Positions 11,577-62,800 of a stretch of DNA of 64,000 nucleotides are shown here, piece after piece (the stretch's first letter is position 1; each line of letters begins with the position of its first letter). The stretch spans positions 29,131,449 through 29,195,448 of the forward strand of contig NC_079491.1 of assembly GCF_020520425.1 (NCBI RefSeq), read 5' to 3'. The notes under the pieces are model-generated. The model had not been told where the DNA came from. It saw only the letters and a list, made by a program, of their open reading frames with translations, and did no database searches. The stretch comes from Spinacia oleracea. Taxonomy: Eukaryota; Streptophyta; Magnoliopsida; Caryophyllales; Amaranthaceae. A program made the position numbers and the translations under genes.

Positions 11577-12869
11577 TATAAGGTTATGATACATATGACT
11601 AAACATAAATCATGCGGAAAAACCATAAAGCCAGGAAACATATTATTTACACATAATCATTTAGCATAATTTAGATGCATACACTTTGTAGCGTGCCCTC
11701 CCTAGCTGCGCTCGAACCGAACAAGAACAAGTCTTTAGGACTCTAAGTGTCGTCCCTCCGTAGATAGTCGACAACACGTCCGGATCCGCCTTAAGATTGA
11801 CCAACTAGAATCGCCCTTAAGGTACTAGGATTTTCGGCTAAATAGGGCAAGTGTTTGTGGCTGATTTTTGCTTGAAAATTTTACCTTTGAATACTTCAAT
11901 CCTCGATGTAAATATGTGACCATAGGCACCTATTTATAGAGTTTATGGAAATGAATTATAATCCTACTAGGATGTGGATTTATTAATTAGAATCCTAATA
12001 GAACTCTAAATAATAAATTTAATCTTTTAGGATTTAGGATTTAATCAATGCACGAATTCCGATAGGATTAGGATTCGTTACGAACACGAGCGTGCACGAC
12101 TACGAGCATCGCACAAACCCGCGCAGGCCTTACGGCCCACACGAGCAGGCGCTGCTCGCAGCCCATGAGCATCAGCCCGCGCGCGCCCCATGGCCTTGCT
12201 GGGCCTGGCCTTGCGCTGGGCCTGGCGAGGCTCTGGCAGCTTCGTGTTGGGCGCTTGGCTTGCTGGGCGCGGGCCTGGCTTCGTGCTGGGCCTTCGTCTA
12301 GCAAGCCTCGTCCGATGCTAATTCGTACGATGCGCTTTCGATTAAATTCCCGATTCCGGAATTTATTTCCGATACGAACAATATTTAATATTTCCTATTC
12401 CGGAATTAATTTCCGTTTCGAACAAATATTTAATATTTCCGTTTCCGGAATTATTTTCCGATTCCGATAATATTTCCGATTCTGACAATATTTCCGTTTC
12501 CGGCAATATTTCCGATTCCGGCAATATTTCCATTTCCATTAATATTTTCCGATACGATCCATATTTCCGTTTCCGGCAATATCATCGTTTCCGGAGTATT
12601 CATTTTCTTGCCTTTGACGATCTTAGCTCCCACTGAAACCAAGATCCGTCGATTCCGAATATCCATAGATGGAGTATTTAATGCCATTAAATACTTGATC
12701 CGTTTACGTACTATTTGTGTGACCCTACGGGTTCAGTCAAGAGTAAGCTGTGGATTAATATTATTAATTCCACTTGAACTGAAGCGGCCTCTAGCTAGGC
12801 ATCCAGCTCACTTGATCTCACTGAATTATTAACTTGTTAATTAATACTGAACCGCATTTATTTCCTTCA
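11577..12869 (-). mobile_element. Solo LTR (1293 bp) inserted in the Copia element
   Basis: A single LTR of the family at the left edge of the window. The 5-bp duplication ACAAC lies on both sides (11572-11576 and 12870-12874), so an element inserted here and later lost its interior and one LTR by recombination. Read on the minus strand it starts TGAAGG and ends CTTATA, so its terminal dinucleotides are TG...TA and not TG...CA. It contains a GC-rich patch (about 12085-12300) and a TTCCG array, both shared with the other copy. Confidence 0.85.
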
Positions 12870-15303
12870 ACAACAACATCAACATTGCTAGAATCACCCA
12901 ACCTGCCAGTGCTACCCTCAACTATACTTGGCATACCATAGTTTCCAATAGTCCCACTCCCTTCAACGTCAATGAACTTCGTATCATCCCACAAAGAATT
13001 TTGATTAAAATACAACTCCCATTGCAATTTTTGTTTATCGGGAAGTGACTCAATGTAAGGAAAAATATTTTCAAAAAATTGGACGTCACGACTCACAAAA
13101 AATTCATTCGTATCAAGATCATAAAGACGCCAACCCTTTTTACCAAAAGGAAATCCAACAAAAATACACCGCCTAGATCTTGAGCCGAATTTGTCCTTAA
13201 CACGTGGCCTATTTGCAGCATAACATAGACAACCAAAGACACGTATAGAATCATATGAAGGAATTTGGCCAAACAAGCACTCATGAGGGGTTTTACCATT
13301 TAATACTTGGGTGGGAGTCCTATTAATAAGGTGAACGGCAATGAGAACACATTCCCCCCAAAAGTACTTAGGCAATTTTGCTTGAAACCGTAGTGCACGA
13401 GCAACATTAAGAATGTGCCTATGTTTTCGTTCTACACGACCATTTTGTTGAGCGGTATCTACACAAGAGGTTTGATGCAAAATCCCCTTTTTCTTAAAGA
13501 AAGACCCCATACTTAAGAATTCTTGCCCATTATCACTTCTCAAAATCTTAATTCGTTTATCAAATTGAGTTTTTACCATTGCATAAAATTCACGAATTAA
13601 ATTTCCAACCTCATATTTTCCGCACATCAAAAATACCCACGTAGCACGAGAAAAATCATCAACAATAGTGAGGAAAAAACGTGCATCGCAACTAGAAAGC
13701 ACCTTATTAGGTCCCCAAATATCCTAATGTATTAACTCAAAAATACCAGATGCTTTATTCAAACTTAACGGAAAAGAGTTTCGGGGTTGTTTGCCCATAA
13801 AACAAATCGGACAATTAAAATCACAACCATTAGGCTTTTTACCACTAACTACCCCAGGTAAAGAAGAAATAACTTTCATAGAAGGATGACCTAAACGTCT
13901 ATGCCAAACATATTTGCATCTGAAACAACCACTTTATTTGCTTGCGGACGATCACGTGCACAAATTGGCATGAATATATAGACCCCATTAGACTGCACCC
14001 CCGCTCCAATCAAGTTCCTCAAATTGTGGTCATGAATAGTACATAGCTTGTTAGTGAGAAGAACAATAAACTTGTGACAGTCTAGTAATTGAGACACCGA
14101 CAACAAATTACAGGTTAGAGCAGGGACATATAAAACATTCTCCAATAATAAACCATCGCACACCAAAATATTTCCTTCTTTCGTGGCGGTATTACTTTTG
14201 CCATTAGGCATACCAAAAGGTGATGAAATATCACGCAAATTTGTGAATAAAGAGAGATTATCCGACATGTGATTTGAGCATCCTGTGTCAATTATCCAAT
14301 CACTGAAACCATACGTACCGTTTAATTTTTTGGACGACGAAGAAGATGGTTTAGACCGATTGAATGCAGCCATGAATTGAGCCCATTGCTCATCAGTCAG
14401 TGTTGGTGCACTGCTTCTATCAGCCTCACCAACTTCCTGGGTACTGCCACCACGGGAACTACCAACATTTGCAGTGAAGCCACGACCAGAATTGCGCCCA
14501 CTGCGACCAGAACCACGACTTTCACAGCCTGAGGCAGACCTGCCCCCACGACCACCACGCGAACCACCAACATACCATTCAGGAAATCCAACAAGTTCAA
14601 AGCACTTGTCTTTCTCATGGCCTGCTCGACCACAATGAGTACATAGCCTACCATCAGAGTCTCCCACAACCTTACCAGATCTAGAATACGCCACACCATT
14701 GGTTGCAAACCCCACTGCATCGGGACGGGGGTTTTCTTGAGCCTCCGAAACAGTTTGCTTTCTCTCATCAGCAATCACACGAGAATAAGAAACATTGAGA
14801 GATGGCAAAGGATCCATCATTAACAAATTGGAAACAACACTCCCAAATTTCTTTGATTCGAGACCAATACAAAATTGATGGAGAATCTCTGTTTCACGAA
14901 TCTGGACATACTCATTAGCAGCGGAACACGTACACGTAGGCAATTTTGTATAACTAGACAATTCATATTGTAAACTACTTAATTCACCATAATATACAGC
15001 CACAGGTCTCCCCCTTTGTTTACAATCAGTAATTTTATTTTTTAATTCAAGAATACGAGGCCCGTTCCCCAGAGAATATCTATCCCGCAAATCATCCCAT
15101 AAATACTTAACATTCTCAGGAAAACGCATAGTAGAACGAACAGACACATCTAAAGTATTAAAAATCCAAGCAACAAGCATAGAATTAACAATACCCCATT
15201 GATTAAAATCATCCGATGTTGCATCTGGAACATCAATGGTACCATCGATGAAGCCGAGTTTGTTTTTTTCACGGAGATTATTGCGTAGGGAACGAGACTA
15301 GGC

Positions 15304-15913: not shown

Positions 15914-18091
15914 TCATACCTTGTTCTTTCTTTTCACTCCATGGAGGGATCTGCACCAGTCACCTGTGCATATTAACATTTGCACTGTTTCTGGTGAAAG
16001 ACTTGCTCTGTAAGAATCTATTACACGACCCCCAGCACTAAAAGTTGCCTCAGAAGCCACAGTGGTGATGGGAACTGCTAAAATTTGTACCGCTAACTTA
16101 GACAAAATTCGGTACTTCATTGATTTTTCTTTCCACCAAGACAAGACATCAAATTTAGAATCTTGAGTAATGAAAAGCCCTTCATCAAAATACAAATCGA
16201 CTTCGGATTTATTAGGCTCCACTACTTGCCCACATCTAACCGATTGCAAAATTTCTGACAAACCACTTACGGAACTACCTCCTTCCACAACACTTGAAGC
16301 AACTTCACATTCTGAACTTTCTTCATCAGTAAAGGAAGAATGCATTCTCACATATTCGTCATACAATTGATATATTAGTTCTCTAACTTTACTAATGTTT
16401 TCCCGAGCTACATGTGAAGGAAACAGTTTGGGGAATGTAATCTCTAGAACCCTCAATTTTAATCTTGGGTCCAATACAGCTCCTATTGACATAAGAATAT
16501 TGCATTCACCCCAATACTTGTCGAACCTTTGTTTCATGTTTTGAACCATACTCTTAACAAAATCATCAGGAGACTCAGCTTTTTGATCCAACGGGACTTT
16601 AACTCTATGCACCTCGGTAAGAAACAAGTTAGAAGTTGGATATTCTGAACCTGATATGATGTTAGTAGTGTCTTTAAAAACTTTTAAGACTTGAAGCAAT
16701 TTTTCAATCTTTTCCCACTCATCATTCAGGACAGCATCATAACTATTATCATGTAAAGCATATCTAGGAAATACCTTTCTAAACTTGATAGCACAATCCA
16801 ACATATCATAAGTTGAATTCCAGCGAGTCTTGCATTCAAGGACTAATTTCCGTGATTGCAAGTTGTATTGGCTAACAAGCTCACCAAACCGTTTAAGTCG
16901 TGCTTCACTTGAGTTCAAAAAGTCTACGCTGTCATGTACTCTTTCAATGATGCTCTTCACTTGTTGAAGCCCATGTTGAACCATTATATTGAGGATATGT
17001 GCACAACAACGCACATGAAATAACCTTCCATTTGCATAACAACCTTCCATTAGATGCAAAATTATCCTTCAAAATCTGAATACAAGAATCATTTGCAGTT
17101 GCATTGTCCACCGAGATTGTGAAAATCTAAGAGATTCAAAAAAACATTTCATTAGTTTAAGACTCCAATCACAACTAATACATACTGAGTATTAGGAAAA
17201 AAAATACAAGTACACTTACTTTGTCTTCAATTTCCCACTCTCTTAAGCATGTTAAGATGCAATCTGCTATATTAGGACCTTTACGTGGAGGAGGCAAGTG
17301 GACAAAATTGAGCACCCGCTTCTGAAGCTTCCATTGCGGATCTACAAAATGAGCTGTTAAAACCATGTATTCGATCTTTTGAGGCCTTGATCGCCACAAA
17401 TCTGTAGTCAAGCTAATTCGATCTACTGTTTTCAACAATGCTTTCAGTTTCTTCTTCTCAATGTCGTACACTTTGAAGGAGTCTGTCCTTATAGTGTGAC
17501 GAGACACACTTGTCCATTGTGGTATTCCCCGTTTTAGCATCAAATTGAAGCCCTCCTCTTCTACAGTAGTGAAAGGATGCTCATGCATGGTGATCCAATG
17601 TGCTAACCCCTCTCTCATCTTTATCATGTCAAACTTACCATTATGCAAAGCACTAACAAATTCAGAATGGTTTGCACCAGCACTTTTATCATATGGCATA
17701 AGTTAATCAATTGCTGTTGTTTCATATGCAACGTCTTATTCGGACAAACATGTCGACTCAAATGAATAGTACTTTTAGATACCAAGATCGAAAGAGGACT
17801 GTTGCAATACTTACACCTTACTTTCCATTTCCTTTTGATTAATTCAGGTTCAAGAAAATCATTCCAGACTTTTGATCTTCTTGGTCTCTTGTAAGCTTGG
17901 AATGAGTTTTCTACCTCTGTTTCTTTCGATGTAGTGCTGGGAGTGTGCTCACCACCTGTTGCATTCACATCTTCACCTTCATCTTCATTTGGTTCCATAG
18001 GAAAATCCTCAGGATTCACATTAAACTCCTCTACTCTTGAAGAGCCTACAGGCGTTGACGATGCTTGTGGTCCACTTGAAGAATTGGTCAT
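15914..18091 (-). pseudogene. hAT transposase (BED finger, RNase H-like core, hATC), damaged
   Basis: The start is set at the ATG at 18091 (MTNSSSGPQASS), because a 3' splice site (TATTTCAG) lies directly upstream and a 5'UTR donor (CAAG|GTTAGT) lies near 18889. Exon 1 runs to 17220 and carries a BED-type finger (VRCKYC...STIHLSRHVC). An intron follows at 17127-17219 (donor GTAAGT, acceptor CTTAG). Exon 2 runs to 15914 with the core motifs SVDNATAND and LFHVRCCAHILNI and a C-terminal dimerisation region containing SEATFSAGGRVI. A one-base frame change near 17,700 and a 19-bp near-duplication near 17,050 each break the frame. Without them the length would be usual for Ac-type transposases. Confidence 0.85.
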
Positions 18092-21256: not shown

Positions 21257-24200
21257 TTTGGTATCAAAGCCGTTTTTTACCTCTGTCTTGTATACTGTAT
21301 ATTGTTGCTGCGTTGATGATGATGATGTATGGTTCTGATTTTTTTTTCTTCGATAATGCTTCAGTTTCGACATCTCTGTTCTCCTAATTATCTTTTGATA
21401 TTACTGTTGAATGTCTGGAACTGTGATGTTGCTTGTTGTATGCTATGCATATTATCATCAATTTTTTTCTCTTTATCTTCCATTGCATTGTTCATGAGGT
21501 TTGAGTATATGATGATGGGTTCTTTTCTCCTTTTTTTATATTGGTATACTGGAGTGATGTGTGTGATTGTATGAGTAATGAATGTGTACAGTATTAAAGC
21601 ATATGGAATTAAATAAATAACTCTATTCCATAATGGTCCATTAATCAATAATAACTTATACCTTAGGTTCCTTGTATAAGCCTTCATCAAATTTTCGTAT
21701 GCTCATATGGACTTTCATGTCTTGCATTCATTAAATATCGAGTGTTTATGTTCTGGTTAATTGATGATGTTGAGCCTTTATTGTCTGTCATTCATAAAGT
21801 ACTACCATTGTTTGTTTGATTGTCTCAAATTAATTTTCTGGTCAAATGTAGTACTTGTGTAGATAATATCGAGTATATTAAATTAAGTTAAAGTTGAGTG
21901 ATTCGAAATTTTATCAGTTAGGGAGTAGCCACATCACCTCTAATTATTAAAATTTTATTTTGGAATCACATGTGAACTTACCCACAGGAACTTTATTGTA
22001 TTCGAACGATTAATTGGGGTGAAATATTAAATTTTGTTTCTTAAGCATCTCACAAGAATTAAGAAATTGATACAATTTAGTAGACTCGCCATATGGTTAT
22101 TGTAAATCTAATTGAGTAGAACTTTAGCCCACATGCAAGTTTTATGTCATCAGATTAATATTTTGCATGATTTACATTGGTAAAGCATGATTAATGCTAA
22201 AAGTCTCAAAAATTGATAATAAGCATGATTACTTATGTTTGTACCTTATTTTGCAGTAGTTTTACCTAGAAACATTTCCGATATCAAAAGTGACATTCCT
22301 GAATTAAAGGGTGATAACTATAAGGTGTGGAGAGACAGAGTGCTTCTGCAGTTAGGATGGATGGATATTGACTATGCTATTCGGAAAGACGAACCAACTG
22401 CAGATGAGGTTGATCTTTATGAAAAGTGGGAGAGGTCTACCCGCCTTTCCGTTATGTTCATAAAGACCAAGATCAGTGCTAGTATTCGGGGTTCTGTCGA
22501 TCAGCATACCAATGTCAAAGGTCTTCTGAAAGCCATCGATGAGCAGTTTGTGTCTTCTGACAAGGATCTTGCTAGCACCTTAATTATGCAGTTTTCATCC
22601 ATAAGGCTTACCGAGATTAAGGGAGTGCGTGATCATATCATGCACATGAGGGACATTGCAGCTCAGCTTAAAGATTTAGAAGTTACCATATTTGACTCTT
22701 TCCTTGTGCATTACATTTTGTGCACTCTTCCACATAAATATGTCCCTTTTAAGGTCTCTTACAACACACATAAGGAAAAATGGTCAATTAATGATCTTAT
22801 GACCATGTGTGTTCAAGAGGAGGGAAGACTGGTGATGGAGGAGGGTGAAAAGGTGAACCTTACTACTTCTGTAAAGAAGAAGGATCACGCTAAGGACAAG
22901 GGAAAGGGGAAGATTCCTGCAACTCAAGCCATTAAGAAGGAGTCTTCGTGTTTCTTCTGTAAGAAGAAGGGACACATGAAGAAAGACAGTGTGAAGTTCA
23001 AGGCTTGGCTCAAGAAGAAAGGTAATTTTCGTGCGTTTGTTTCTTATGAATCTAATATGGTTAATGTGAATAATAATACATGGTGGATTGACTCTGGTAC
23101 TACAATTCATGTTTCGAATACCTTGCAGGGTATGACAAACCTAAGGAAACCAGTGGGCAGTGAATATCACATCTATTCAGGAAATCAGATGAGTTCACAT
23201 GTAGAAGCCGTTGGGACATGCAACTTAACTTTAAGTAGTGGTTTTATTTTGCATTTAGAAAGGACATTTTATGTTCCAAATTTCTCTAGAAATTTGATTT
23301 CAGTTTCAAGACTTGTACCTTTGGGATTTTCCTTTAATTTTTCAGATTCTGGTTTTAGTTTAATTCAAAATTCTGGAATTATTGGTTATGGTATTTTGTC
23401 TGAGGGTTTATACCGCCTTGAATTGCGAAATGAGATCGCCCATAGTTCCTTTCATGTCAATAATGGTTTAAAACTATGTATTATAGATGAAAATTCATCC
23501 ATGTTATGGCACCGAAGATTGAGACATATATCCATTGAGAGAGTCAAAAGATTAGTAAAGGATGGGGTACTTGATACTCTAAACTTTGCTGATTTTCAGA
23601 CTTGTATTAGTTGCATTAAGGGAAAGCAAACTAACAAATCTAAAAAGGGTTCTAAGAGGAGTTTTGACCTATTAGAAATCACACATACGGATATTTGTTG
23701 TCCGGACATGAACGCTAAAGATCCGAAATACTTTATCACATTCATTGATGATTATTCGCGATACATGTATCTCTACTTGCTTCATTCCAAAGATGAAGCT
23801 TTGAGTGCCTTTAAATTGTTTAAAGGTGAAGTAGAGACACAATGTGGTAAGCACATTAAGATCGTGAGATCAGATAGAGGTGGAGAGTACTATGGTAGAT
23901 ACACCGAGAATGGACAAGCATGTGGTCCATTTGCGAAATTTCTTCAAGAGCATGGGATTGTTTCCCAATACACTATGCCTGGTACTCCAGAACAAAATAG
24001 TGTGGCAGAAAGAAGAAATAGAACCTTATTGGACATGGTGAGAAGTATGCAGAGTAATGCGAAACTTCCACCATTTTTGTGGATTGAAGCTCTTAAGACG
24101 GCAGCCTATATATTAAACCGGGTTCCTTCTAAGGCTGTCACTAAAACGCCTTTTGAGTTGTTCAAAGGATGGAAACCTAGTCTACGTTATATGCGCATTT

Positions 24201-26532
24201 GGGGATGCCTGTCAGAAGTAAGAGTTTATAACCCGCATGAAAAGAAGCTTGACCCGAGGACTATTAGTGGGCATTTCATTGGATATCCCGATAAATCTAA
24301 GGGTTATAGATTCTATTGTCCATCCCACAACACCAGAATTGTGGAATCAAGAAACGCTAAATTTCTTGAAAATGACTTAGTCAGTGGGAGTGATCGATTA
24401 CAGGACATTGTTTCTGAAAACGATCATGTTGAAGTTCCACCCTCTGATTCAAGTGATAAGATGATTGTCATTCACACCGCTCCAGTTCAATCGGGTGTTA
24501 GGCAACCAGTAACGGAAATTCCACAAAATCTTGATAACATTTTGATATATCATGAAGAAAATGAGGAGCATCGGGATGATCAACACATTGATCAAGCTCC
24601 CTTAAGAAGATCTGTTAGAATGAGGAGATCAGCTATTTCTGATGATTATCAGGTGTATTTGCAAGAATCGGATTGTAATAATGAAGTTGATAATGATCCA
24701 ATTACGTTTTCACAAGCCACAAGTTCTGCGGATTCAAACTTGTGGATGAATGCCATGAAAGATGAGATGGATTCTATGGCATCTAATCGAGTTTGAGATC
24801 TCATCGAGTTGCCCGATGGAGTAAAATCCATTGGATGTAAATGGGTATTTAAGAGAAAGAAAGACTCACTGGGCAACATCGAGAGACATAAGGCTAGACT
24901 CGTTGCAAAAGGATTCACTCAAAGGGAAGGAATCGATTACACGGAGACTTTCTCTCCCGTATTAAAGAAAGATTCTTTTCGAGTGATTATGGCCTTACTA
25001 GCTCATTTTGATTATGAGTTACATCAAATGGATGTGAAAGTAGCATTTCTCAATGGTGATTTAGAGGAAGAGGTTTACATGAAACAACCTGAAGGATTCT
25101 TCTCTAAAAAGGGTGAGCATCTAGTTTGTAAGCTAAATAAATCCATATACTGACTGAAACAAGCTTCTCGCCAATGGTATATGACGTTCCATCAAGTGAT
25201 AATTTCATTCGGTTTTGAAGAAAATGTCATGGATCAATGCATATACCAGAAGGTTAGTGGGAGTAAGATTTGTTTCCTTGTGTTATACGTGGATGATATT
25301 TTGCTAGCAACCAATGATAAGGGGTTGTTATATGAGGTGAAACAATTTCTTTCAAGTAAATTTGATATGAAATATATGGGTGAGGCATCTTATGTTATTG
25401 TCATTAAGATCCATAGAGATAAACTTCGAGGCATTTTAGGTTTGTCTCAAGAGACCTATATAAATAAAGTACTTGATAGATTCCATATGAAAAAAATTTC
25501 ACCAAGTGTAGCACCAATTGTGAAGGGTGATCGGTTTAGTTTGGACCAATGCCCCAAGAATGATATTGAGAAGGAACAAATGAAAAATATTCCTTATGCT
25601 TCAGCTGTTGGAAGCATCATGTATGCTCAGGTTTGCACTATACCTGACATTGCATATGTTGTTGGAGTGTTGGGAAGATATCAGAGTAACACATTTCCTG
25701 ATCACTGGAAGGCTGCAAAGAAAGTGTTGAGGTACCTTCAGGGTACCAAAGATTACATGCTTATGTAGTTATGTATAGGCGAACTGATACTCTCGAAGTA
25801 GTGGGATATTCTGACTCCGACTTCGGTGGCTGCATTGATTCACGAAAATCCACCTCAGGATATGTGTTTATGCTAGCTGGTGGTGTCGTTTCTTGGAGGA
25901 GTGCGAAGCAGACTTTAACTGCTACGTCGACTATGGAGGCTGAGTTCGTATCTTGTTTTGAGGCTACCTCACATGGTGTTTGGCTGAAAGGTTTCATATC
26001 TGGGCTAAGAGTCATTGACTCTATCTGTCGGCCAATAAGAATGTATTGTGATAATTCAGCTGCTGTCTTTATGACTAAGAACAATAAGAGTGGAAGTCGA
26101 AGTAAACACATCGACATTAAATTTCGTGCCGTAAAAGAACGTGTTCAAGAAAAGAAAGTGATCATAGAACACATTAGCACTGGATTAATGATTGCTGATC
26201 CCTTGACCAAGGGCATGCCAATAAATGTTTTCAAGGGTCATATAGAAAAGATGGGTCTTGGACTCATCAATTGACATATATTTTTATGTTGTAACCTTTT
26301 ATTCAGTTGGATATTTCTTAAGTTATGTACGTACATGACTTTTGTTATTCTATTAAAGAAATGTCATTATGTTTGGCCTAGAGTAAACATAAGGTTTATT
26401 CATTAAGTGGTATGAGTGGTGAAAGACTGAATATATTGTGATACATGGAAGATTAATTCTTGTTCTAAGAGAATTTGTCGCTATGATTCGTGTATGAAGT
26501 TTTTCTTAGTAAATATGGACCAAGTGGGAGAA

Positions 26533-47393: not shown

Positions 47394-48795
47394 CTAGTCG
47401 TCTGCAACCTCAATAAGGGTAGGTTCGTAATCACCAGGAGCCTCATATCCATGTAGGTTGATCACTGTGGCAGCTACATTGGCAAGACCACCATCAGGTA
47501 CATCCTTGCGGAATCTAACACCAGGAGCAAGCCCAGGACCTCCAATTGCAATAGGCACCTGAATAAGACAAAATACAATAATAGACAACACGGTGAGAAC
47601 TAACAACATATACTCGTCCTCTCGCAGAACATCATGCACCAAAGAAAAAAGTATCCAAGTTTCTTTAAAAAGGTTACATACCGGTTGTAACGTGTGAGAT
47701 GTAAGAATCTGAACGTTTCCATTCTTATCAAGTTGAGGCTGCCCTTTCTTGTCCCTCTTTACCATGTCTTCAGCATTTCCATGATCAGCAGTAACAACAT
47801 ATATTCCACCAACTTGCTCAATTGCATCGAAGATCATCTGCAAATAATCCAGCCAATCAACATCACTTGCCTTTTTTAGAAAACACAACACTAAAATAAA
47901 CCGAGTTAAACAAATGGGACCTGAAGAGCAAGAGTAACACTCTTTACATCTTAAAACCCTTGATTTAATTAACTACTATGATTTCTCAATTTCTTCTTAG
48001 TCGCAATTCTGCAGTTGATCAAAATAAATATTCCGCACAGCAGAGTATACAATGGTAACTGTAAACACAAATTTACGAGTCTGCAAAAATAACAGAATCA
48101 AAATAATGTGAACAAAATATATTTTTATTGATTTTGCATTTGGGTACAATCTCTAATGTTTATCCACTGATTCGATCTCTACAACAGCAAGAATTTGTGG
48201 TTTGAAGGTAGAACGGCGTTTGTGCTTGTTGTTCTTCTTCCACCGAGATTTGATGTCAGACTTGTGTGCTTGGAAGCCGTCTTCGGGTTTTTTCTGGAGA
48301 GTAGTAGGTTTTTGTATACTACGTTCAGTCTGTCTGCCAAATGACTTGGAGAGAACTTTTTATATCCTCTTCTTAGGTTTAGGGTTTTCCTTTTGTGGAT
48401 AAATGGGCCTCTTTACTTAAGCTCATTTAAATAACCCACTCCTATTAAATGAACGTCATTTATTAAAAATGGGCCTATTTGGTTTATAACCCAAATTAAA
48501 CAATTTATCTGACATTTAATAATAGAAGTCAACATTTGACTTTTTCGGGACAAAAAATGATGATGTGGCATTCTTCATATTTTTAATGCCTACAAATTGC
48601 CCCCTCGAGATCGGTCACGTACACGAATCTTTGAGTGTTTGCTCGTGGTCCGATCTCGAAATCCAGTTTGCATTATTTTTTTCGTATACTCTGCCTTCTA
48701 CTAGAAATAGGAGTAGTACTTAATTAGTATCTTGGCCCAAACCATTACTGACCCATTTTGATGCATGGGCTGGCCTGAAATTTCTTTTCCTTGGA

Positions 48796-48855
<60 letters not shown>

Positions 48856-51800
48856 CTTGATCCATTTTGATACATGCACTTACGTTAAGCATTTTTCTTT
48901 GACATGAAACTTTCCTCAAATAACATCACCCTTTACGAAGAACAATAATATTAGGACTCCATTGATCCCGACTAAACCAATTAGGATAGAGTTTGCTCAA
49001 AATTTATCTTCTTCCAATCTGACTAGTATAGGACCCGAAATCCGACTAACTGATTAAAAGAATTGGATAGAATTTTATCGAAATTTATCTTCCTCCAATT
49101 TGACTAGTAGTAGGATTATGAGCTACAAGACTATAAATACACCTCTTATGCCATCAATTCACCTCACCATCAACAACAACTCGACGACCTTTGATCGGAG
49201 ACTCCGAAATTTGACCAGAAGCCTTGACGCTGCCACAGCCCCGACCCGAAGGAAGAACAACTCAGAGGAGATCAACACCGAATCGTCATCATCGAATAGC
49301 CCGTGAAAGAGGAACGAACCAGTGGACATCATCACCAAACCAACGGTCGTCATCAAATCGGTCCGAACACCAACCCAACGGTCGTCATCAAATCGGTCCG
49401 AACACCAATCCAACGGTCGTCATCGAATAGTTCGTGAGTCCGTCAAGCAGCCCGTGGAGGAGACTTAAAGTCTTGTTGGTATGTATATTTTGAACCTTTG
49501 AACTCTGTTTATCTGTCTTTCAGCAATCTTGAACCTCTGAAGCTTGAACTGTTTGATTTTCATGGTTGAATATGCGTGCCTGCTCTTTTTTTGTATCATT
49601 GAATTTGTATTGCTGTGAATGATGATAAATATATGGAGTATGAAACAAAGTATAGACCAAAACTTCAAATTTGTTTCTTTTTTTGTTTTTTTTTTTTTTT
49701 TTTTCGTTTCTTTGGTCTCGTCCCCCTGTTTGTTTGTTTTTGCTGTAAAAATAATGATAATGATCTTAATGATGTGTGATGGATGAAGACAATGACAATC
49801 CCTCCAAAAGTTCTTTTGTCTTTTTCTCCCCTTTTCTTGTTTACCCACGTGAATGCACCCTCTCTTTTTTCTTCTTCTTTTTTTTTTTCTTTTTTTTTTT
49901 TTTCAACTTTTTTGATGATAGATGACTAGATGAGCATAAGTTTTTTTTTTGTCTTTTTCCCTCTTAGGCTCACGTGACTGCTCATCTTCTTTTCTTTTTT
50001 TTTCTTTCTTTTTTTTTTAAAAAAATAAATAAATAAATAATAACAGTATAAATCATATAAAAATAATGATGATGATTAATGATGAATGATGTTGATGGGC
50101 CCTACAGATTTATTTTCTTCCTGCCAATTCACGTAACTTTGCATAATATACCCCTTTGTTTGGAGATCGGTAACAATGTCCCAATGTTATGGAATATGCT
50201 CCTCTGTATGTCCATATAATAACAGTAGCTTTACAGTAGCAAAAATTCGTAAAGTTGACATATCATTGATAATAATCTGTACTGCCTTTCTCTTTTTTTT
50301 TTGTCTTTTTGATGAATGATGATCGATAACAGCAACCCCAAACTTGAACTTGCTCCCCCTTTTTTGTGCGGTCGAACATAATACAATTGCTTCCTCCGTT
50401 AAATATTACTTTGTTAATTAACTGCATCGTTAAACATGCATTGACTTGCACTTTTTTTTTTTTGCGTTGACTTTGTAGGAACAAAGAGTCACCATGGTTT
50501 ACTTCAAGTATCACAATACTCCTGGAGAAGAGACTTTGTCACTCATGGAAGATGCTAATTCGGTCGATGGAGCGCACTTTCGTTCATTTCCTCCTGTGAT
50601 TGGTCCTTTTGCAAACATCCATTCTTCTACGGAGTTCTCGGGCCCGAAAAGCTGGTACAAGGAGAGTCGTGATGTTAATGCATTTGGTGGAAAAACACCT
50701 AATCCTGTCCTTGTCGCTTCACATCACCGTCCCTGCGATGATGCGTGTTCTTTCCAGACATTATCTACGCGTTTGTCCCGCAAGGAGACCAAATGGAGTT
50801 CTAGTCCGAAATTTGGAGTCGAGCCAACATACATCCCTCTTTACTGGGAATGGTTAGAAGATGTCCTGCACCATTCCAGACGCACACTCGCTAGCACCCA
50901 TATTCTTGATGCCGTCTATGCTTCTATGTACATCTACAAATGTAATTCTCCTGTCATGCAGGCTTTTTGTGAATCCTGGTGTCCTACGACAAATACCTTG
51001 CACACTTCAGTTGGAGAAATGTCAATCAGTCTTTGGGATATATACGACCTTGGTGGGCTTCCCGTAACTGGCCTTTTTTATGACGAGGTCGTCCCTTCTG
51101 CCGTTGAATTGGAAGGCTCCGACGATGAGCACAGTCTATACCTCCCTTACAGTTGCAAATATTTGTTCATGGCTTTGCATTATCTTTCTGAGAAACACAA
51201 GGTGACAACAATAACGTTCGAGACTTGGTGTGATTTTTGGTTTCGCGGTGCATCAAAGTATTTCTTGGCATCTGGCAACAAAAAGTCTGTCCTTCCAACA
51301 CTTATGAAAGACTTCAGCTCCTTTAATGGTCCTCGATCGTGGAGTCATAAGATGTACGAAGCCTTTCGCATCCTACGGATTCCTGAAGCGCATCATCGAC
51401 AAACATATTTGGCTGCCTTTCTCTCATGTTGGCTTTGTGCCTTTGTTTTGCCGGTGTCAGATTTGGGTTGCATCCGTCCTGGATCTTTCAAACCTGCGTC
51501 ATTTCTTGCAAGTGGAAAAGAGACTTCTTTGGCGATCCCTGTTTTGGCGAGCATCTACCACGGATTGAGCAAAATTTCGAATTCTCCTACCCCCGGCAAA
51601 CATCGCGAGTCCTTCCCTGCACAATATGTGTATGCCTGGACCGCTAAGTATTTTCGAAGTCATCACGTCGTCACCTACGATTTTGTTGGTGCTCCCCTGG
51701 TTGGAATTCAAGGCCTTGACTCTGTCATAAAGTCTCCAGATGCTAAATCGCTAGTTTCTTCGGGTAAGGATTTCAATTGGCTTGCTAACTCAATTTGTGG

Positions 51801-53748
51801 TAATTCAGATGAGAAGCGTGAAGATGACAACCATCAACCAAAGCAATTCGCAAACTTCTTCATTAGCATGCGGTCCTGTTTTCTGACCTTGAGGTTCGAC
51901 AACAACTACGTGGTTGAGCCATACAGTCCTCATCGATTCGGTCGGCAATTCGGATTTCACCAAGATGTGCCAGGCGAATTAGTAGTCCAGACACAAAACA
52001 TCACCCGAGAGCATATGTACTATCTTTTTCAGTCCAGCATTCGTCTGCATACTAGGGCTACTTTTTTGGTCCCTTGCCGCACGTTTAATGCCCAATCTCG
52101 AGTCACTCCAAGCTTCACAACATGGTGGAATTCGGTCGTTTCTTTAAATGCGGCTTATGCTTCAAGAACTCCTAGTCCAACAAATGTCAGGTCTAAGAAG
52201 AGAAAGGAGAGAAAGGGCGATGATCTTAACACTTCACCAAAAGACAAAGCTGCCAAGACTTCGGCTGCACCTCGCAAAGTTAGAGTCAGATTGCCTAAAA
52301 GTTCCACGATATCCTGTCCGCCCAAGGAAACATCTTCGAAATGCAGGGACGAGAGTAGAAGACTAGCAAGCAGAGTTGTAAGTAATGAACCTTCCAATGA
52401 CGAAAATGAACCTTCCGATGACGAACACGCAGGTGAACCTACAATTCTGGATGATATTTTCGCTGAAGATTATGGCCCTGAGCTATCGCCGGAAGAGATA
52501 GAGGTTCATTTCTTTACTTTGACATTCTCGTTTTCTTTTTAATTACTATTTTAATACCCTTTATTTTTCACTTTTCAGAATCTTCAAAGCGATGCGAACA
52601 TAGCAGTAGAGCTTACTGCTTGCGAGAATACATTTGTCTCCCTTCCTGAACAACAGTTCATTGATGATGTTGTCATTGATACTGCGCCAACCACAAGTGT
52701 TTCTACTGCTTCGACCGAGTCTCCTTCTTTTAATGCTCAAGACATGATCACTAAGGCGACCAACAGGGCGGACCGATATGCTGCAAGCTTGATGATTAAT
52801 GAAATAAAGGACAAGTTGATGAAGACTCCTTTAGCCAAGGTTCATGAACTAGCGCAGGAGTTTGAACAGGTTTTCTCCTATGTTCGTGATAAGAAGATCG
52901 ACATCTCTGCAATCGAATCTTTTATCAAGGGGTATATTGGGTGCGGTTCTCAACTCCACCACGTTCGGCTAGGGAAACAGGGAGATCCCACTCTCAATGA
53001 CTTGGAGCAACGATCTTTGGAGATAGAGACGAGCGTGCAGACAACTACAATTGCAGGGAAAGCAGAAGAGGAGCGAATGCAAGCTCTTCATAAGGAGATA
53101 GATCAGATTCAGCAAGAACAAGCCGAACATAAAAGGAAGCTCAATGATTTAGCAGAACGAGCGGATAGACTTTTGCCTCTTATTTCAGAATCAGAAGAGA
53201 AGTTCCAAGGGTACGTCATACAGAAGAAAGAGCAAGAAAACTCACTCCTCATCATGAAGGAGAATATTGTTGCTGCGAAAGAGGTGGAGGCAAAGCTAGC
53301 GGAAGCTGAGAAACAATTTGGTGTTGCTCGTGATGCTTTGCAAGCCTTCAAATTTGAACCGTAGTTCCGCCTTTCTTGTTACCATCGTTGCACTTGTTTT
53401 CTTTTAATTCTTTTTTTTTTTTTTTTTTTTTTTTTAGAGACCAATTTGTTTTAAGAATTCCAAAAATGAAATGAATAAGACTCGTCATTCTTCCTGTCAA
53501 AGATTTTTGTCATTGATTCCATATTCATTCAACTCATAGGAAACCAACATGAAATTTTCATTTATTTATTTAGCCGTTCACAGTTTATACTCTTGCGGGC
53601 CAGGAGTAGTACAAAAATGGGAGAGATTTTTGGTGTGGCTGGACTTAAAGTTAGTGATTCCTTCAAGCTGCCTACGTACTTATGAAATGAATAAATTCAC
53701 TCCATAAGATCAAGCCAACGTAGTTCCTTAAAAGCAAAAATAATTTCT

Positions 53749-53787
<39 letters not shown>

Positions 53788-53814
53788 CTGACGTCGTTTG
53801 CTGACGTCATTTCC

Positions 53815-53899
<85 letters not shown>

Positions 53900-56800
53900 T
53901 CAGTTGCAGTTTAGCCTCGTGCTTAGGAGGTTACAATGTTGCACAACTTCAAGGGTAGTAACGCTTCAAAAATTTGCCGTTGATAGGGCCTATGCGCAGT
54001 CCTTCTGCATCAACGATCTTGTAAGCTCCATTTGTGTAGACTTCCTGGACAACGTAAGGACCATCCCATTTCGATGCAAATTTATTTCCCGTTTTGCGAG
54101 AAACAATGATCGGTCTCTTGATAGCAAGGACCGTGTCTCCAACTTTGAAAGACCGTACTCGCACCTTCTTGTTGAACGCCCTTGTCAAACGAGCATGGTA
54201 GCATTCCAACTTTTGTTGCGCCTCAAGCCTCTTTTCGTCAAGTGCTTCCAACTCTGCCAGACGAATCTTAGCATTTTCTTCTTCAGTGAGATTTTCCTGG
54301 ATTGCCATGCGAAGTGACGGAATTTGAATCTCCAATGGCAATATGGCCTCCACACCATACACAAGTGCATAAGGTGTCGCTTGAGTTGGTGTCCTGTACG
54401 TGGTACGATACGCCCATAGAGCTTCGCCCATTCTTTCGTGCCAATCTCGCTGGTGTTTCCCAACAATCTTACTAAGCAACTTGCAAAGTGTTTTGTTGAA
54501 AGATTCAGCTAGTCCGTTTGCAGGTGCATTATACATTGAAGACTTGTTTTGTGCAAACTTGAATTTCTCACAAAGGCTCGTCATCAACTTGTTGACAAAT
54601 GGTGTTCCGTTGTCTGTGATTATGTAACGTGGCACGCCATATCGATGTATGATGTGATTCCGAATGAAATCGACCACGTTCTCTTTCTTGACTTCACGAA
54701 GAGGTATTGCTTCCGCCCATTTTGAGAAGTAATCCGTAGCGGCAAGGATGTATGCATGACCACCTGATGATTTCGGTGTGATTGGACCAACAACATCGAG
54801 ACCCCATGCTTCAAACGGCCAAGATGTCACTGTCGGATGTAGCGGTTCCGGAGGTTGATGAATAAAGTTCGCATGGAATTGACAAGCTTCACATTTTTTC
54901 GCAAGTTCCATGCAATCTTGAACCATGGTTGGCCAGTAGTACCCCATCCTCTTGACACGGTCGTGAAGCTTAGGACCAGATTGGTGAGCTCCGCAAACTC
55001 CAGAATGAGCTTCTTGCATTGTTTTTGCTGCTTCTTCATCTCCCAAACATCTCAACCAGGTTCCAAGGAACGAACGCCTGTAAAGTGTTTCTTTGTAGTA
55101 AATGAAGCGTGGAGCACGTCGTCGAATTTCCATCTTGTATTTCAAATCGCTTGGCAACTTTTCGTGTACCAAGAAATCAATGAGTGGTCGACGCCAATCT
55201 TCTATGTCTATCTCATAGACAGTAACTGCACCTGAGAGTTCTTCAGCTTCAATTTCAACTTCATCTTGAGGGTTTATCACCCACCGATTACAGACCGGGA
55301 CCGACATGTTTTCTTCTGCCCCCAGTGCCAATGTGGCTGCGAGATTTGCAAGTGCATCCGCTGTCTTGTTGGCACTCCTTGGAACATGTTGCAATCGGAC
55401 GCTCTCAAATTCTGCCAGCAATTGTGAAGCATGCTTATAATAAGGAATCAAGTCATCTTTCTTGACATCATAATCATCGAGGAGTTGATGGATCACCAGC
55501 TTGGAGTCACCGTATACATCAAGGTCCTGTATTTTCATCTCTTTTGCCATTTGAAGCCCCAGAACGAGAGCTTGATATTCAGCAACATTGTTCGAGCATA
55601 AGTTGGTGAGCGTAAATGAATACGTGAAGACATGTTTCTCAGGTGATACAAGGATGACCCCTGCTCCCGCACCATCTTGGCGAGCTGCTCCGTCGAAGTA
55701 CATTTCCCATGGAGGTAAGACATCAATGTAGAATACTTCTTCTCCAGGTAGATCATCAGGAAGCTCCCAATGTGATGGAATCGGATGTGCAGCTAGGAAA
55801 TCGGCCAAAGCTTGTCCCTTGATCGCCTTTTGAGGTACGTACACAACATCATGTTGACTTATGAGCATAGCCCATTTAGCAAGTCTTCCGGATAGTACTG
55901 GTCTTGATAGGATGTACTTTATGGGGTCAGCTTTGGAGATCACCTTCACCGTATGTGCCTGCATGTAATGCTTCAACTTTTGGATTGCAAAGATCAAAGC
56001 TAGACACACTTTCTCAATAGGCGAATAATTCAATTCCGCGCCAACCAACGTACGACTGAGGTAGTAAAGAGCAGCTTCCTTTCCGTCACCATTCTCTTGA
56101 GCACACAATGCCCCCAACGACCTTTCATGAGCAGAGATGTAGAGGATAAGTGGCTTCCCTTGAACCGGTGCCCCCAAGACAGGTGGGGTTGAGAGGTACT
56201 GCTTGATGCTTTCAAAAGCTTTGCGACATGAATCGTCCCATTCAAATGGAGCGCCCTTCTTCATAAGATGGCTGAAAGGATGACATCGTCCTGCAAGATT
56301 CGAAATGAAGCGTCGGATATATGCAAGTCTCCCTTGTAATCCGCGCAATTCTTTGAGGTTCTTCGGCTCGGGCATATTCTGGATTGCTGTAATTTTTGAC
56401 TGGTCAATTTCAATTCCTCTATGTCTCACAACAAATCCTAGGAACTTTCCAGAGGTTACGCCGAATGCACACTTCAAGGGATTCATCTTCAATTGATACC
56501 TACGCAATTTCTTGAATACCTCGCGGAGATGAAGCAAATGATCGTTCCTCTTCTTTGATTTGACGACAAGATCATCGACATAACATTCAACGGTCTTATG
56601 CATCATGTCCTCGAAGATTTTCTGCATTGCTCTTTGATAAGTTGCGCCTGCATTTTTCAAACCAAACGGCATCACCTTGTAGCAAAAGATACCCTTTGGT
56701 GTACGGAACGCCGTTGCTTCTTGATCTTCGGGCGCCATGAGGATCTGATTATATCCCGCCGTACAATCCATGAAGGATAATGCTTCATGTCCGGTCGTTG

Positions 56801-59800
56801 CATCAATCATTATCTCGGTGACAGGCAAAGGAAAATCATCCTTAGGACACGCTTCATTCAGATTTCTGAAATCTACACAAACACGCAACTGGCCATTTTT
56901 CTTCCTCACAGGTACAATGTTTGCAATCCAAGTAGGATACTTTACTTCACGAATGAAGCCAGCGTCGATGAGTTTGTTGACTTCAGCTTCAATTTCTGGA
57001 ATTAATTCAGGTCGGAAGCGTCTCTGAGGTTGCTTCTTTGCTGAGACTCCTTTCCTTACTGCTAAACGGTGGACCGCCACTTTGGGGTCAAGACCCGGCA
57101 TTTCCCTGTAACTCCAGGCGAAAACATCTTTGTACTCGGTGAGTATTTCGAAGTATCCCTTCTCTTCTTCCTGAGTGAGCAGAGCACTAACATAGATTGG
57201 ACGCGGATCATCTTGGGTGCCGAGATTCAACTCCTTTAGTTCATCAATTGTGGTCTCAACTCCATCATCAAGATTTTTTGGTGCTTCTGTTGTTTCCATC
57301 TCCTCCTCCAAGTCTACATCCTCATAAGCGGTGATATGATAGGAGGTGACCGTCATATCTTCTACGGCATCACGTTTCTGGCTTGTGGGGCTCTTTTGGC
57401 AGGTTAGAACCATGGTGTGGCCTTTTACACGGAGAGAATCACCTGTCTTCACTTCCAGTACCGCCAAGCGTTTCATTCGAGAAGGTACGTTGCTTCTGAC
57501 ATCGTTTTCCAGCTCGAACTTGTCTCTTGTTTTTGATGCAGTGTTTTTCGGCCTCCACTGCGGCTTGAGCGAAACGTCCTTCTTCCCAAGACGACTGAAG
57601 ACTTCCTTCTTAGGCTTCTGTGACAGACAATTGGTGGGTTTGCCAGTGACTTTTCCCAATCTTGCGAAGACATCTTTTGCATTCGGGCTCTTATGTGCTT
57701 TCCCGGAATGATCTCCCAATCTATCAAAGACTCGACTTGGTGTTGGAGAGTTTACCGGACCGTCGAGCCTATCAAAGACGGAGGACCGTGCTTTAGCTGA
57801 AGACGGATGTATCCTATCAAAAACCGATTCTTTCTGGACTGGCTCAAAATTCTCATCCACACTTTCTTCCATTTCCTGAACTCCAATGTACTGTGATGCT
57901 TGCATTGACCTCCGTCGTCCTGAGATGATAATTGGCTTAGACTCCTTGAATCCCAAACCAACCTTTTTCACCCAAACACGTTCACCTTGTTGCTGAAGTT
58001 TTTGCTGAGTTTTATTGAGGCCGTATGACTTATCTTCAACGAGCTTTCCCATGGGTTTTGGGTTAGAGAAATCATAACCAGAATTTTCCATTAACTTGTA
58101 TGCAACTGGATCAAAGCCATCTTTCCTTGAGCTAGGTGTTTCTGGCGACTTCGTGGAGTTTGGAGTAGGAGAAGCCAATATCTTCGGGTCACTGATCTTA
58201 TGGACCGGCAATGTCATGCTTTTATCAAATTCTTGCGGCATGTCCTTGACCTTTTTTGAAGTTGTTTCTGCTCCACAATTCATAAACGGAGACTGACCTT
58301 CTTTGCGACGCGACATGGGGATGTAACGTAGCACTGGCACTGCTTCTCTAGGATTTTCTTCAACTCTTTGCGAAAGAATCTCCTTGCTTTTCTTCTCATC
58401 AACTGTTTCATGTGACGGCTCCAGAACATTCCTTGAAGGCTTCTCTTCTGTAACCCTTGATTGCAACTTCTTCGGCATGACTTTTCCAGTCGATGCAATT
58501 TCCGTGGGCATTACTTCAGCAGGCTCTCCTTGGCTGGCATAGAATTTCGCATCGGCAAAATGAGACTCTACTTCAGAGAATGGCTTCACGTCCGCATTCA
58601 CCTTTCTTTCACCGTTTCTGTAATATTTGAAGCATTGATGCAAGGTTGAGGCTACTACTCCATTTTCGTGCATCCAAGGTCGGCCTAGCAATAGGCGATA
58701 TGAAGTATTCGAATCAATGACATGAAAAATCGTTGTTGCAGTCATTTCTCCGATAGTCAGATCAACTCTTATCATACCGATGGCTCGTTGCCCGCCTAGA
58801 TTGAATCCTTGGATCATCAATCGACTTTCGGTCAACTCACTTTCGGTGATTCCCAACTTCGTCATGGTGGACTTCGGCATTATGTTCACTGCGGAACCTC
58901 CGTCTACCAAGATGCGGTTGATCTTTTTCTTGCGGATGTATCCACATACAAAGAGAGGTCTGTTGTGAGGCTTTGAACCCAACATAAGGTCTTCGTCTGT
59001 GAATGCCAAGGCCGCACTGCATGCAGCACAACGCTCAGGGTGATTTTCGTAGATCCCTTGCTCAATATTTTCCTTCGATGTATATTGCGTCGGATTTTCT
59101 ATGGCACGTGCAAGGGCGAACCTCATTTCTTCGGGTAGGGATAAAGCTTGGCGCCAACCCATTCGAGAAGGGACTGTACCTAACAACGCCAGAATCTTTG
59201 CATCTCTTTCAGGGTCTCTTTCATGGTTTAGCCCTTCAGAGACTAGACTTTTCTCTTCTTTCTCTTCTTCTTCCGCCACGCTACAGGTCACTGTGTTGAC
59301 AGAAATTTCGCCGAGGTATTCCTGCGGAAGGAAATCATTTAATGTGACATGCTTTCGTACCTCCTTTGTGGGAAAACTGTCGCGCGAGGTGTTCTTCTTT
59401 TTCACGAGACCTTTGTTTCTCGTGACATGCGAACTTTTGGATTTGTTTCTTTTCTGGTGTTGCTTTTGACGAAGAGGAGGTTGCTCTTCTAGCTTCGTTT
59501 GCTTTCTCTTCTTCCTTCTCGTCACTAATGTCCATCCTTCCTCATCTTCCTTGCGAGGTAGAGGGGTGGACGCAGAATTCTTGACGGGATCTATTATCGA
59601 AATGGGATCCAAACTTCCAAACTGGATGACTGAAGCATGATGGGACTCCGCCGCTTCATCCAGATCTAGCACAATCCTCCCTTCTGTTGCAAGTTGCATG
59701 ATTCTCTCCTTGAGAGTGATGCACTTTTCGATAGGATGGCTCACTATTCGATGGTAAGGGCAAAAGTTTGGGTCAGATGTCCTTCCCATTTGATCAGGGC

Positions 59801-62800
59801 GCTTGGACTCAGGCAAGCTTATGACCTTCTTCTCCAACAAATCGTCCAACATGCCGGCCAAGTCTGAATCTGGAAATGGATACTTCTTTGCTTGGAGTTC
59901 TTTAAGCGTTGGCTTATCTCTCCGAGCATCTTTTGTAAATGGCCCTTTCTTCTGTTCAGTTTTAGGCTTCGCCGAAATTTTTACAGGGGCAGAGCTAGTG
60001 GCAACGGCAAATGACTCCTTGGTTGAATCTTTCACGTATTTCTCAGGCTTCTTGAAGTCCTTCTTTTCCTTCTTGAAACTTGAAGAACTTCCTCCACGAT
60101 TATTGGTGATACTGATCTCCATGTCATGAGCACGGGTAGCCAAATCTTGAAAGGATCTTGGTTTTATGCCCTGCAAAATGTACAGCAAATCCCAGTTCAT
60201 ACCTTGGATGCACATTGCAATAGCAGAGGTCTCCGTCAGACGGTCCTTGCATTCCAGGCTTAGAGTGCGCCACCGGTTGATGTAATCTACAACAGGCTCA
60301 TTCTCCCACTGTGTCGTCTTTGTCAATTCAATCATGCTGACGACACGTCGTGTACTGTAGAACCTGGCCTTGAATTCTTCCTCCATTTCTGCCCAACCGT
60401 CGATGGCTTCTGCAGGAAGGTCCGTGTACCAGTCGAATGCCGTGTCCTTTAGAGAACGGACGAACTGTTTGACGAGTAAATCCCCCGATGTGCCAGCGTT
60501 GTTGCACGTTTCGATGAAGTGGGCTACATGCTGCTTGGGGTTCCCCTTTCCGTCAAACTGCTGGAACTTCGGAGGTTGATAACCGACGGGCATCCTTAAG
60601 TGATCGATTCTCTTCGTGTACGGCTTCTCATAAAGATGACTAGGGCCGGAGCTTCCGACGATATGATTCTTCACCGCATTTGTTATCATGTCCTGGATCT
60701 TTTTCATGGTGAATGTGTCGTCGGGTTTTTCACCCTTTGTGGTAGATTTTGAAGTCGTACTCCCTTCAGAGTCGTCGTTCTCTTCGTCTGCGCTCTCTTC
60801 CTGTTTCTTGAGCTTTTTGGTTAAGGAGGAAATCCTCTCATTCTGCTTCTTGATTTCCTCGTCTTTCTCCTCGCCATCCTTCATGAGCTTCACGATCATG
60901 CCCTTCATTTCGGCAAGCTGCTCCTCAACGGTCTTTGATTCGATCGCCATCACCTCCGCAATGTCGGTCTGTAGGGACTGGACCGATTCTTCACAATCTG
61001 ATACTTTGAGGGGTGACGTTGGAGAAGACCCGGTACTACTCTTTGCATCGCTTTCTACATAGAAAGGATCGAACAAAGGACTAGTGTGGATGACCAGCCT
61101 GTCAGGCTTTTGGTGAGGACGCATATCTTCTTCACCGGGCATAAGGAATCGTGCACCTTCAGCAGGAAAGGACCCGAAAACAGGGATGTTGCGGGATTTG
61201 CGGTAATACGGATTCGGGGACACGTCGGAGGAAGCACGGACATGGCTCTTTCTCCTTGTTTTGGTGGTGATAGGAGCCGAACGCAGACTCGAAGCAGCCT
61301 CATTCAGATCAGCGTTCTTCATTCCTCTGGTGCGTATACCCTCGTCACGCCCTTTCATCATCTCAGCCAATTCTGCCGCCCTTTGTTTCACCATAGCGGC
61401 CTTCTCAGCATCGGACATGGAAACGGTTTGTTGAGCAGCCATCTTCGTTGGTAGATTGATTTTTTTTTTTTTGTAGAGAAGGAGATGAGTGGTAGAGTGG
61501 TCCCACCGAGCGTGCCAATTTGTAAACACAAATTTACGAGTCTGCAAAAATAACAGAATCAAAATAATGTGAACAAAATATATTTTTATTGATTTTGCAT
61601 TTGGGTACAATCTCTAATGTTTATCCACTGATTCGATCTCTACAACAGCAAGAATTTGTGGTTTGAAGGTAGAACGGCGTTTGTGCTTGTTGTTCTTCTT
61701 CCACCGAGATTTGATGTCAGACTTGTGTGCTTGGAAGCCGTCTTCGGGTTTTTTCTGGAGAGTAGTAGGTTTTTGTATACTACGTTCAGTCTGTCTGCCA
61801 AATGACTTGGAGAGAACTTTTTATATCCTCTTCTTAGGTTTAGGGTTTTCCTTTTGTGGATAAATGGGCCTCTTTACTTAAGCTCATTTAAATAACCCAC
61901 TCCTATTAAATGAACGTCATTTATTAAAAATGGGCCTATTTGGTTTATAACCCAAATTAAACAATTTATCTGACATTTAATAATAGAAGTCAACATTTGA
62001 CTTTTTCGGGACAAAAAATGATGATGTGGCATTCTTCATATTTTTAATGCCTACAGTAACTGAATGGTAAGACGATAAAACATCCGCAATTAAAAATCTT
62101 AAACCAAGTGTGGTTTTCACAATTCAGTATCTTCTTAGTTTCCAAAGCCCACAACAACATTTCTCCAAGACACACATGTCAATTTATTTATCATACTGGT
62201 TGCTCCAGTTAAAAATTAAATCTTTAATTACAAGTCTCCTTCATCAAACCACCTAACCCCTTCTTTATGTTGAAAGATTAAACCTCACACTTCTATATAC
62301 CTCACAATTCTATATGCTCCCCATTTATCCCAGGGCCATGCACCACGAAATATAGACTACCCCTCAACCTCCTTATACATTCCTTCTAATTTCTAGATAT
62401 GGAATACTCAAAGTAGCATCTTACTTCCAGAAACGGATATTTTGCATAGAAATTGCAGTTAAGACATTCCGCATTTTCCATATCACCCTCTTACTATCTT
62501 ACAAAGAATTTACCACAGACATCCAAGTCACAGGCTTCCCAGCATTCACTACGGATGAGCAAAGAAAGGTCCAAGTGGATCAAGTGTGCGAAATCCAAGT
62601 TTCTACAAGAAAAGAGAGTAAGAGAGAAGAAGCTGAAGAAGGGAGGAAGCATTCACCATGGCTACAACACAGAAAGAGAGAGAAGAGGTTAGTAGCTTCA
62701 ATCAGATCTTTTATTCTGATTGAGAGAGGCGCGTCTGGGGATGACAATGGATAAGCTATGAACAGTTGAACACTTTATAAAAAAAATACCAGAAGAGCTG

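Follow-up and report, generated by a model that had tools for sequence, protein, structure and literature searches.

The window analysed in this study is a 64,000-nucleotide stretch of the Spinacia oleracea genome (contig NC_079491.1, positions 29,131,449 to 29,195,448). It contains a Tat element of the Ty3/gypsy retrotransposons, spanning positions 48060-62055 (13,996 bp), which carries a plant mobile domain (PMD) gene antisense to its gag-pol. In gag-pol orientation the element lies on the minus strand, with the 5' long terminal repeat (LTR) as the right-hand one (61521..62055) and the 3' LTR on the left (48060..48594). Both LTRs are 535 bp long and show zero differences, and the 5-bp target-site duplication GTAAC stands on either side of the element (48055..48059 and 62056..62060). 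A preliminary description of this DNA had claimed identical LTRs, a perfect target duplication and a young insertion, and our results bear this out. Four sibling copies of the element (L013, L016, L017 and L018) have identical LTR pairs as well, which indicates that the family moved recently. The primer binding site (61500..61517, minus strand) is complementary to tRNA-Arg(UCU). This assignment is based on eight genomic sites in which a CTTCTAA anticodon loop is joined to a 3' end that agrees with the complement of the primer binding site over the 15 bases preceding CCA.

The gag-pol gene is a single open frame of 2,553 codons (61610..53949, minus strand). From the first in-frame ATG past the LTR (61442) it covers 53949..61442 and encodes gag, protease, reverse transcriptase (RT), RNase H, a second RNase H and integrase. 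Pfam matched gag, RT, RNase H (residues 1791-1919), the second RNase H (RVT_3, residues 1972-2091) and integrase; the protease match was weak and below the cut-off. The second RNase H in pol places the element in Tat, and its position between RNase H and integrase is the order described for Ogre and Retand (PMC6317226). Its PMD, its tRNA-Arg primer site and the lack of a Pfam match to Transposase_28 in the three element proteins scanned suggest Ogre, and this lack also makes membership of Retand less likely. An extra open reading frame (ORF) with a PMD (pfam10536) is reported for 57% of the Ogre elements (Neumann et al. 2019, PMC6317226), the extra ORF of Retand often encodes Transposase_28 rather than PMD (PMC6317226), and a tRNA-Arg primer site is an Ogre trait (PMC9289625). 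The element thus shares the PMD in an extra ORF, the position of the second RNase H and the primer site with Ogre-lineage elements. It differs from the usual Ogre, in which gag-pol consists of two ORFs ~274 bp apart (a spacer that is intronic in the Ogre elements of pea and Medicago), a trait that is not a strict criterion (PMC6317226). Here, gag-pol is one uninterrupted frame in which neither an intron nor another region separates gag-prot from RT, and the LTRs are short (535 bp). A further difference from the Ogre PMD ORF as described is that our extra gene is divided into exons and is equipped with its own promoter signals. From its sequence, the element is probably a structurally complete, recently inserted member of the Ogre type of Tat.

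The antisense gene lies on the plus strand, convergent to gag-pol. A TATA box, CTATAAATA, is located at 49131..49139, ~540 bp interior to the 3' LTR. It is followed by a 5' leader exon (49162..49478), the start of which would lie ~31 nt past the TATA box; the leader has no upstream ATG and forms an island of conservation. The stretch from the TATA box to the end of the leader (49131-49478) is CAA-rich, and a 35-bp unit is repeated 2.7 times at 49333-49428. A predicted leader intron of 1,000 bp (49479..50478, GTATGT...TTGTAG) has its acceptor end at 50478, directly ahead of CACCATGG, and the ATG follows at 50494. The PMD exon (50494..52503, 670 codons, with PF10536 at residues 137-546) is separated by a predicted 75-bp phase-0 intron (52504..52578, GT...AG) from a second coding exon, which encodes a likely coiled coil (52579..53364, 261 codons plus the stop at 53362-53364). 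An AATAAA signal is located at 53690..53695. The convergent spacer between the antisense gene and gag-pol (53365..53948) contains T runs of 25, 36 and 80. A T run of at least 15 was found in this spacer in 13 of the 14 rows examined, the exception being L012, and the T runs might possibly serve as terminator or insulator.

The preliminary description had claimed an antisense PMD frame and a coiled-coil frame as two units. The first is confirmed by a match of the 682-codon plus-strand frame to PF10536 of 109.6 bits (E 2.4e-31, positions 2-347 of the 347-position profile), in excess of the curated cut-off of 34.9 bits. The second antisense frame is also present. For this frame a coiled coil is plausible, based on a C-terminal part of the 206-codon frame that is rich in K, E, R, D, Q and A and has a weak 3.5-residue hydrophobic period; no Pfam match was found for this frame at E 0.01. 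The division into two units did not hold. The two frames join in phase over the 75-bp GT-AG intron into one frame of 931 codons, and we reject two separate genes in view of copies L020 and L022, in which the coding-exon boundary is kept while the intron is much longer. When the bases of the two exons were shuffled, none of 2000 trials for each exon was open. The predicted protein of 931 residues runs from the PMD through a basic and acidic tail to the probable coiled coil. The tail contains the basic cluster KKRKERK, which we take to resemble a nuclear signal. A single-sequence AlphaFold2 model of the PMD had a mean pLDDT of 33.7, and a search of solved structures with P0001 gave nothing up to E 1.

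The signals of the antisense gene recur in other copies of the element. The genome searched comprises 894,210,420 bases in 242 contigs, and its PF10536 matches supplied 14 sibling copies for comparison (L009-L022). In a DNA search with the PMD exon, 40 candidates, each of them scored, yielded 46 matches. The whole frame is spanned by 13 of these, including the window and C5:66942259, which is outside the 14 copies. The TATA box is present in 12 of the 14 copies, in one of them as GTATAAATA. A leader donor could be set in 11 of the 14 copies and in the window; in each case we chose the later of the motifs present. Up to this donor, 8 of the 12 leaders contain no ATG, that of L022 contains one, and those of L011, L013 and L017 contain two each, where 3.5-6.3 would be expected per leader. 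The introns that follow contain 24-35 ATGs. In an alignment of the leader region that is rich in gaps, eight of the nine 40-base bins in 49044-49403 had an identity to the window of 0.63-0.82, and the ninth had 0.43. Identity was mostly 0.1-0.56 in the upstream and intron bins, with five intron bins at 0.56-0.75 and a peak at the acceptor. AATAAA lies 294-332 nt past the stop in all 14 rows with a located stop, window included (the stop of L021 was not located). The spliced frame (930-931 codons) is complete and open in 10 of the 14 copies as well as in the window; in L012 the frame is interrupted by three stops, and L020, L021 and L022 have no single complete open frame. A conserved antisense gene is therefore well supported, and its anatomy is very probably as we modelled it. 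One copy is arranged differently. L015 (G000:C3:1929783-1939773) consists of two antisense halves head to head, with arms of ~4.06 kb that are 99.9% identical and that each start with an LTR identical to that of the window, so that both antisense promoters would face inward. This inverted repeat is possibly a source of double-stranded PMD RNA, or an assembly error.

The preliminary description had also suggested that the intact frame in a fresh insertion points to selection. Our results show that selection is real, but the evidence comes from divergent copies and from a second element family (see below) rather than from an intact frame in a fresh insertion. With the method of Nei and Gojobori, each copy was compared with the window over a PMD block of 410 codons. 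The ratio of nonsynonymous to synonymous divergence (dN/dS) was far from 1: it was 0.12 in L010, 0.14 in L011, 0.075 in L013, 0.15 in L014, 0.09 in L020, 0.21 in L022, 0.135 in L021 (dS 0.82, dN 0.11, p 7e-42) and 0.31 in L012, the copy with three stops. All eight contrasts were significant by Fisher tests (p < 0.002); in four of these copies the open frame is no longer complete. Of the outcomes that the preliminary description named as refuting its view, neither the absence of a PF10536 match nor a dN/dS near 1 across copies was thus observed. The N-terminal part, the tail and the second exon were less constrained than the PMD, and several blocks were not significant. For instance, the second exon had a dN/dS of 0.42 in L020 (p 4e-6) and 0.54 in L022 (p 7e-4), and the tail of L013 had 1.5, from six differences. 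For comparison, integrase had a dN/dS of 0.03-0.20 in L010, L012, L013, L014, L020 and L022; two synonymous changes and no others separated L011 from the window, and none separated L016-L019 from it. We set aside the integrase of L009 (0.87, six stops, truncated) and the gag of L011 (1.12, two stops, poorly aligned). Of the seven gag-pol blocks, none was found in L015 and L021, six were not found in L009 and three were not found in L012. As judged from these substitution patterns, the PMD is under purifying selection nearly as strong as that on integrase. Since selection kept it, the antisense gene probably helps the element.

Divergence was not uniform along the gene in L020 and L022. Their PMD blocks are close to that of the window (dS ~0.07-0.09), their second exons have a dS of ~0.47-0.49, and the tail of L022 has a dS of 0.93. 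This switch near the end of the PMD suggests an exchange of modules between subfamilies.

The same layout was found in a second element family. A protein search revealed a group of 18 rows at 38% PMD identity, 17 of them free of stops (among the best 65 of 396 candidates), and an integrase search revealed a group at ~84% identity (among the best 112 of 25,164 candidates). We compared the layout of 28 PMD rows, made up of these 18 and of ten relatives in a more degraded state, with that of 40 integrase rows out of the 112. A convergent integrase lies within 4 kb of the PMD in 18 of the 28 rows, mostly 1.8-1.93 kb away (1.8 kb in the window), and within 25 kb in 25 of them, leaving three with none. 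The one gene of this family that was read (C4:132131900-132134590) has a phase-0 GT-AG intron of 132 bp behind the tail, in a position that corresponds to that in the window. PMD identity is far below integrase identity, which possibly reflects faster change of the PMD or its replacement.

In a PMD tree of 15 rows, the four Tat rows form one clade (support 100/99) on a long stem, and the program warned of long branches; the tree holds rows of this genome only. The rows of L023, L025 and L027 form another clade (100/100), and eight others a weak group (59/40). Compared with the PMD-A1/A2 clades (Ikeda et al. 2017, PMC5418596), the PMD of our element is likewise encoded by a Gypsy element and, within this genome, seems to group separately from the remaining PMDs. 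A tblastn search of 10-kb stretches with other PMD loci, six in all (L023-L028), revealed no Tat pol domain. In one of these, L025 (G000:C2:63840500-63850499), a frame of 855 residues that looks like a MULE transposase by eye lies just upstream of a PMD frame of 310 residues. MULE transposons with a PMD have been reported (PMC5418596), and they resemble our element in having the PMD inside or beside a transposon. In L025, however, the PMD is on the same strand as the MULE-like frame and belongs to a different clade. PMD frames of 310 residues recur many times in the genome.

How might such a gene work? Introns on the strand of the genomic RNA tend to be lost during retrotransposition, and neither introns nor a poly(A) signal are recognised in sense RNA if they lie antisense. 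The antisense gene would be an independent RNA polymerase II gene, with its own TATA box, leader exon and two introns. Its antisense placement could then be explained by the fact that introns and AATAAA would be read backwards in the genomic RNA, so that the introns would survive reverse transcription and the genome would not be cut short. Introns on the sense strand would risk removal.

The PMD protein itself may be a nuclear accessory factor that acts in trans on chromatin or transcription. Action in the nucleus is likely because of the basic cluster in the tail, the kinship to the PMD proteins of the host and the finding that the antisense gene of maize Grande has a nuclear product. Of several possible roles, the most plausible is that the PMD protein prevents the host from silencing the element's own expression, as has already been proposed in print for element-borne PMDs (PMC8616336). 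We rank this role first among those considered, with confidence somewhat short of even. The explanation as a whole, an antisense gene with a nuclear accessory role that most plausibly counters silencing, seems to us evenly poised between right and wrong.

Several points weigh against this interpretation. The link of the host proteins MAIN and MAIL1 to silencing concerns the genic PMD-C clade, whereas the PMDs of Gypsy elements are PMD-A (PMC5418596), and the host proteins act at least partly indirectly, via MORC1 expression (PMC9899485), which weakens a simple model of mimicry. The window shows no enrichment of the 'DOWN' motif of MAIN/MAIL1-dependent promoters (4 matches at no more than one mismatch, 5.5 expected). 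A TATA box was not found in L012 and L021 among the 14 copies checked. The exact leader donor is uncertain, as a GTGAGT at 49434, ahead of the chosen donor, might be used instead in the window; this earlier motif is present in 11 of the 12 leaders (not in L020), and L010 has only GTGAGT. Six of the copies (L009 and L015-L019) differ from the window at no more than two PMD sites and are uninformative on selection. All dN/dS contrasts have the window as one side and hence are not independent, and in L012, L020, L021 and L022, which lack a complete open frame, part of the divergence may postdate its loss. Finally, the second exons of the two families gave no convincing alignment. Since 25 of 1000 shuffles aligned as well, homology between them is unsupported.

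Other roles of the antisense gene can be envisaged. Like MAIN and MAIL1, the PMD protein might help to silence its own family and thereby limit its copy number. Silencing is promoted by host PMD proteins (PMC5418596, PMC7156037), and the family looks small, judging by the 13 rows with a whole PMD frame; an LTR search covered the best 40 of 370 candidates. Yet a low copy number has many possible causes, and the identical LTR pairs in L013, L016, L017 and L018 speak for recent movement; we therefore regard such self-restraint as rather unlikely. An equally low probability is given to the view that the PMD protein directs integration or anchors the pre-integration complex on chromatin. This would suit a domain family tied to chromatin and silencing, the basic tail, the likely coiled coil and the retention of the PMD alongside pol in two families, but the gene model gives a separate transcript instead of a polyprotein product.

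Alternatively, the antisense RNA itself could be what counts, as double-stranded RNA or phased small interfering RNA (phasiRNA), with the frame as a by-product. The transcription units are convergent, PMD genes of tea yield phasiRNAs (PMC10673657), and L015 has the 4-kb inverted repeat of the PMD half. The low dN/dS argues against this, because it reflects purifying selection on the protein, and so do the ATG-poor leaders and the conserved splice sites, which makes an RNA-only role very improbable. Least credible of all is the reading that the element took up the gene from its host and that young copies simply carry it along as a passive passenger. The near identity of six of the 14 copies to the window in the PMD means that intact frames say little by themselves, but this reading is contradicted by a dN/dS of 0.075-0.21 in the seven more divergent contrasts. 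Moreover, the same layout exists in the second family at 38% PMD identity, and the Tat PMDs form a separate clade.

PMDs in Gypsy elements have been reported (PMC6317226, PMC5418596, PMC9289625) and are widespread in angiosperms (PMC5418596), and transposon silencing requires host PMD proteins. In maize Grande, the antisense gene23 is driven by its own promoter, and its product is nuclear (PMC7264820). Together with TRP28 of Retand (PMC11963269), gene23 resembles our gene in its antisense location between pol and the 3' LTR, but these genes encode another protein domain (Transposase_28 in Retand). By term count, the word 'intron' is absent from the Grande and Retand papers (PMC7264820, PMC11963269). 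Introns or a split anatomy of such antisense genes were not found in searches of the open-licence literature, as judged by titles, the beginnings of abstracts and term counts. Hence, the element is of a known kind, as PMDs in Ogre-lineage Tat elements are in print, and its split-gene anatomy is what we did not find described. Surveys based on ORFs alone can divide such genes into separate 'extra ORFs' and overlook the introns. A defined gene model in young elements, which specifies a spliced transcript and a protein, makes the role of the element-borne PMD testable. More doubtful is a generalisation in which PMD-carrying Ogre-type elements would have a true second RNA polymerase II gene, its antisense placement would preserve the introns, the PMD would be a family-specific counterpart of MAIN/MAIL1 that controls silencing, and PMD exons would be swapped as modules.

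Some further observations concern the genome and the remainder of the window. A region of ~2 Mb (G000:C4:141705962-143718023) contains at least ten PMD matches with several long open frames, and is probably an array of PMD genes. At G000:C5:2564144-2593494, three LTRs of the element family are spaced 13-15 kb apart, as though the middle LTR were common to two elements. Elsewhere in the window, other transposons are represented by a fragment of a hAT transposase at 15914-17059 and by fragments of copia type at 10208-15180 and 22235-24796.

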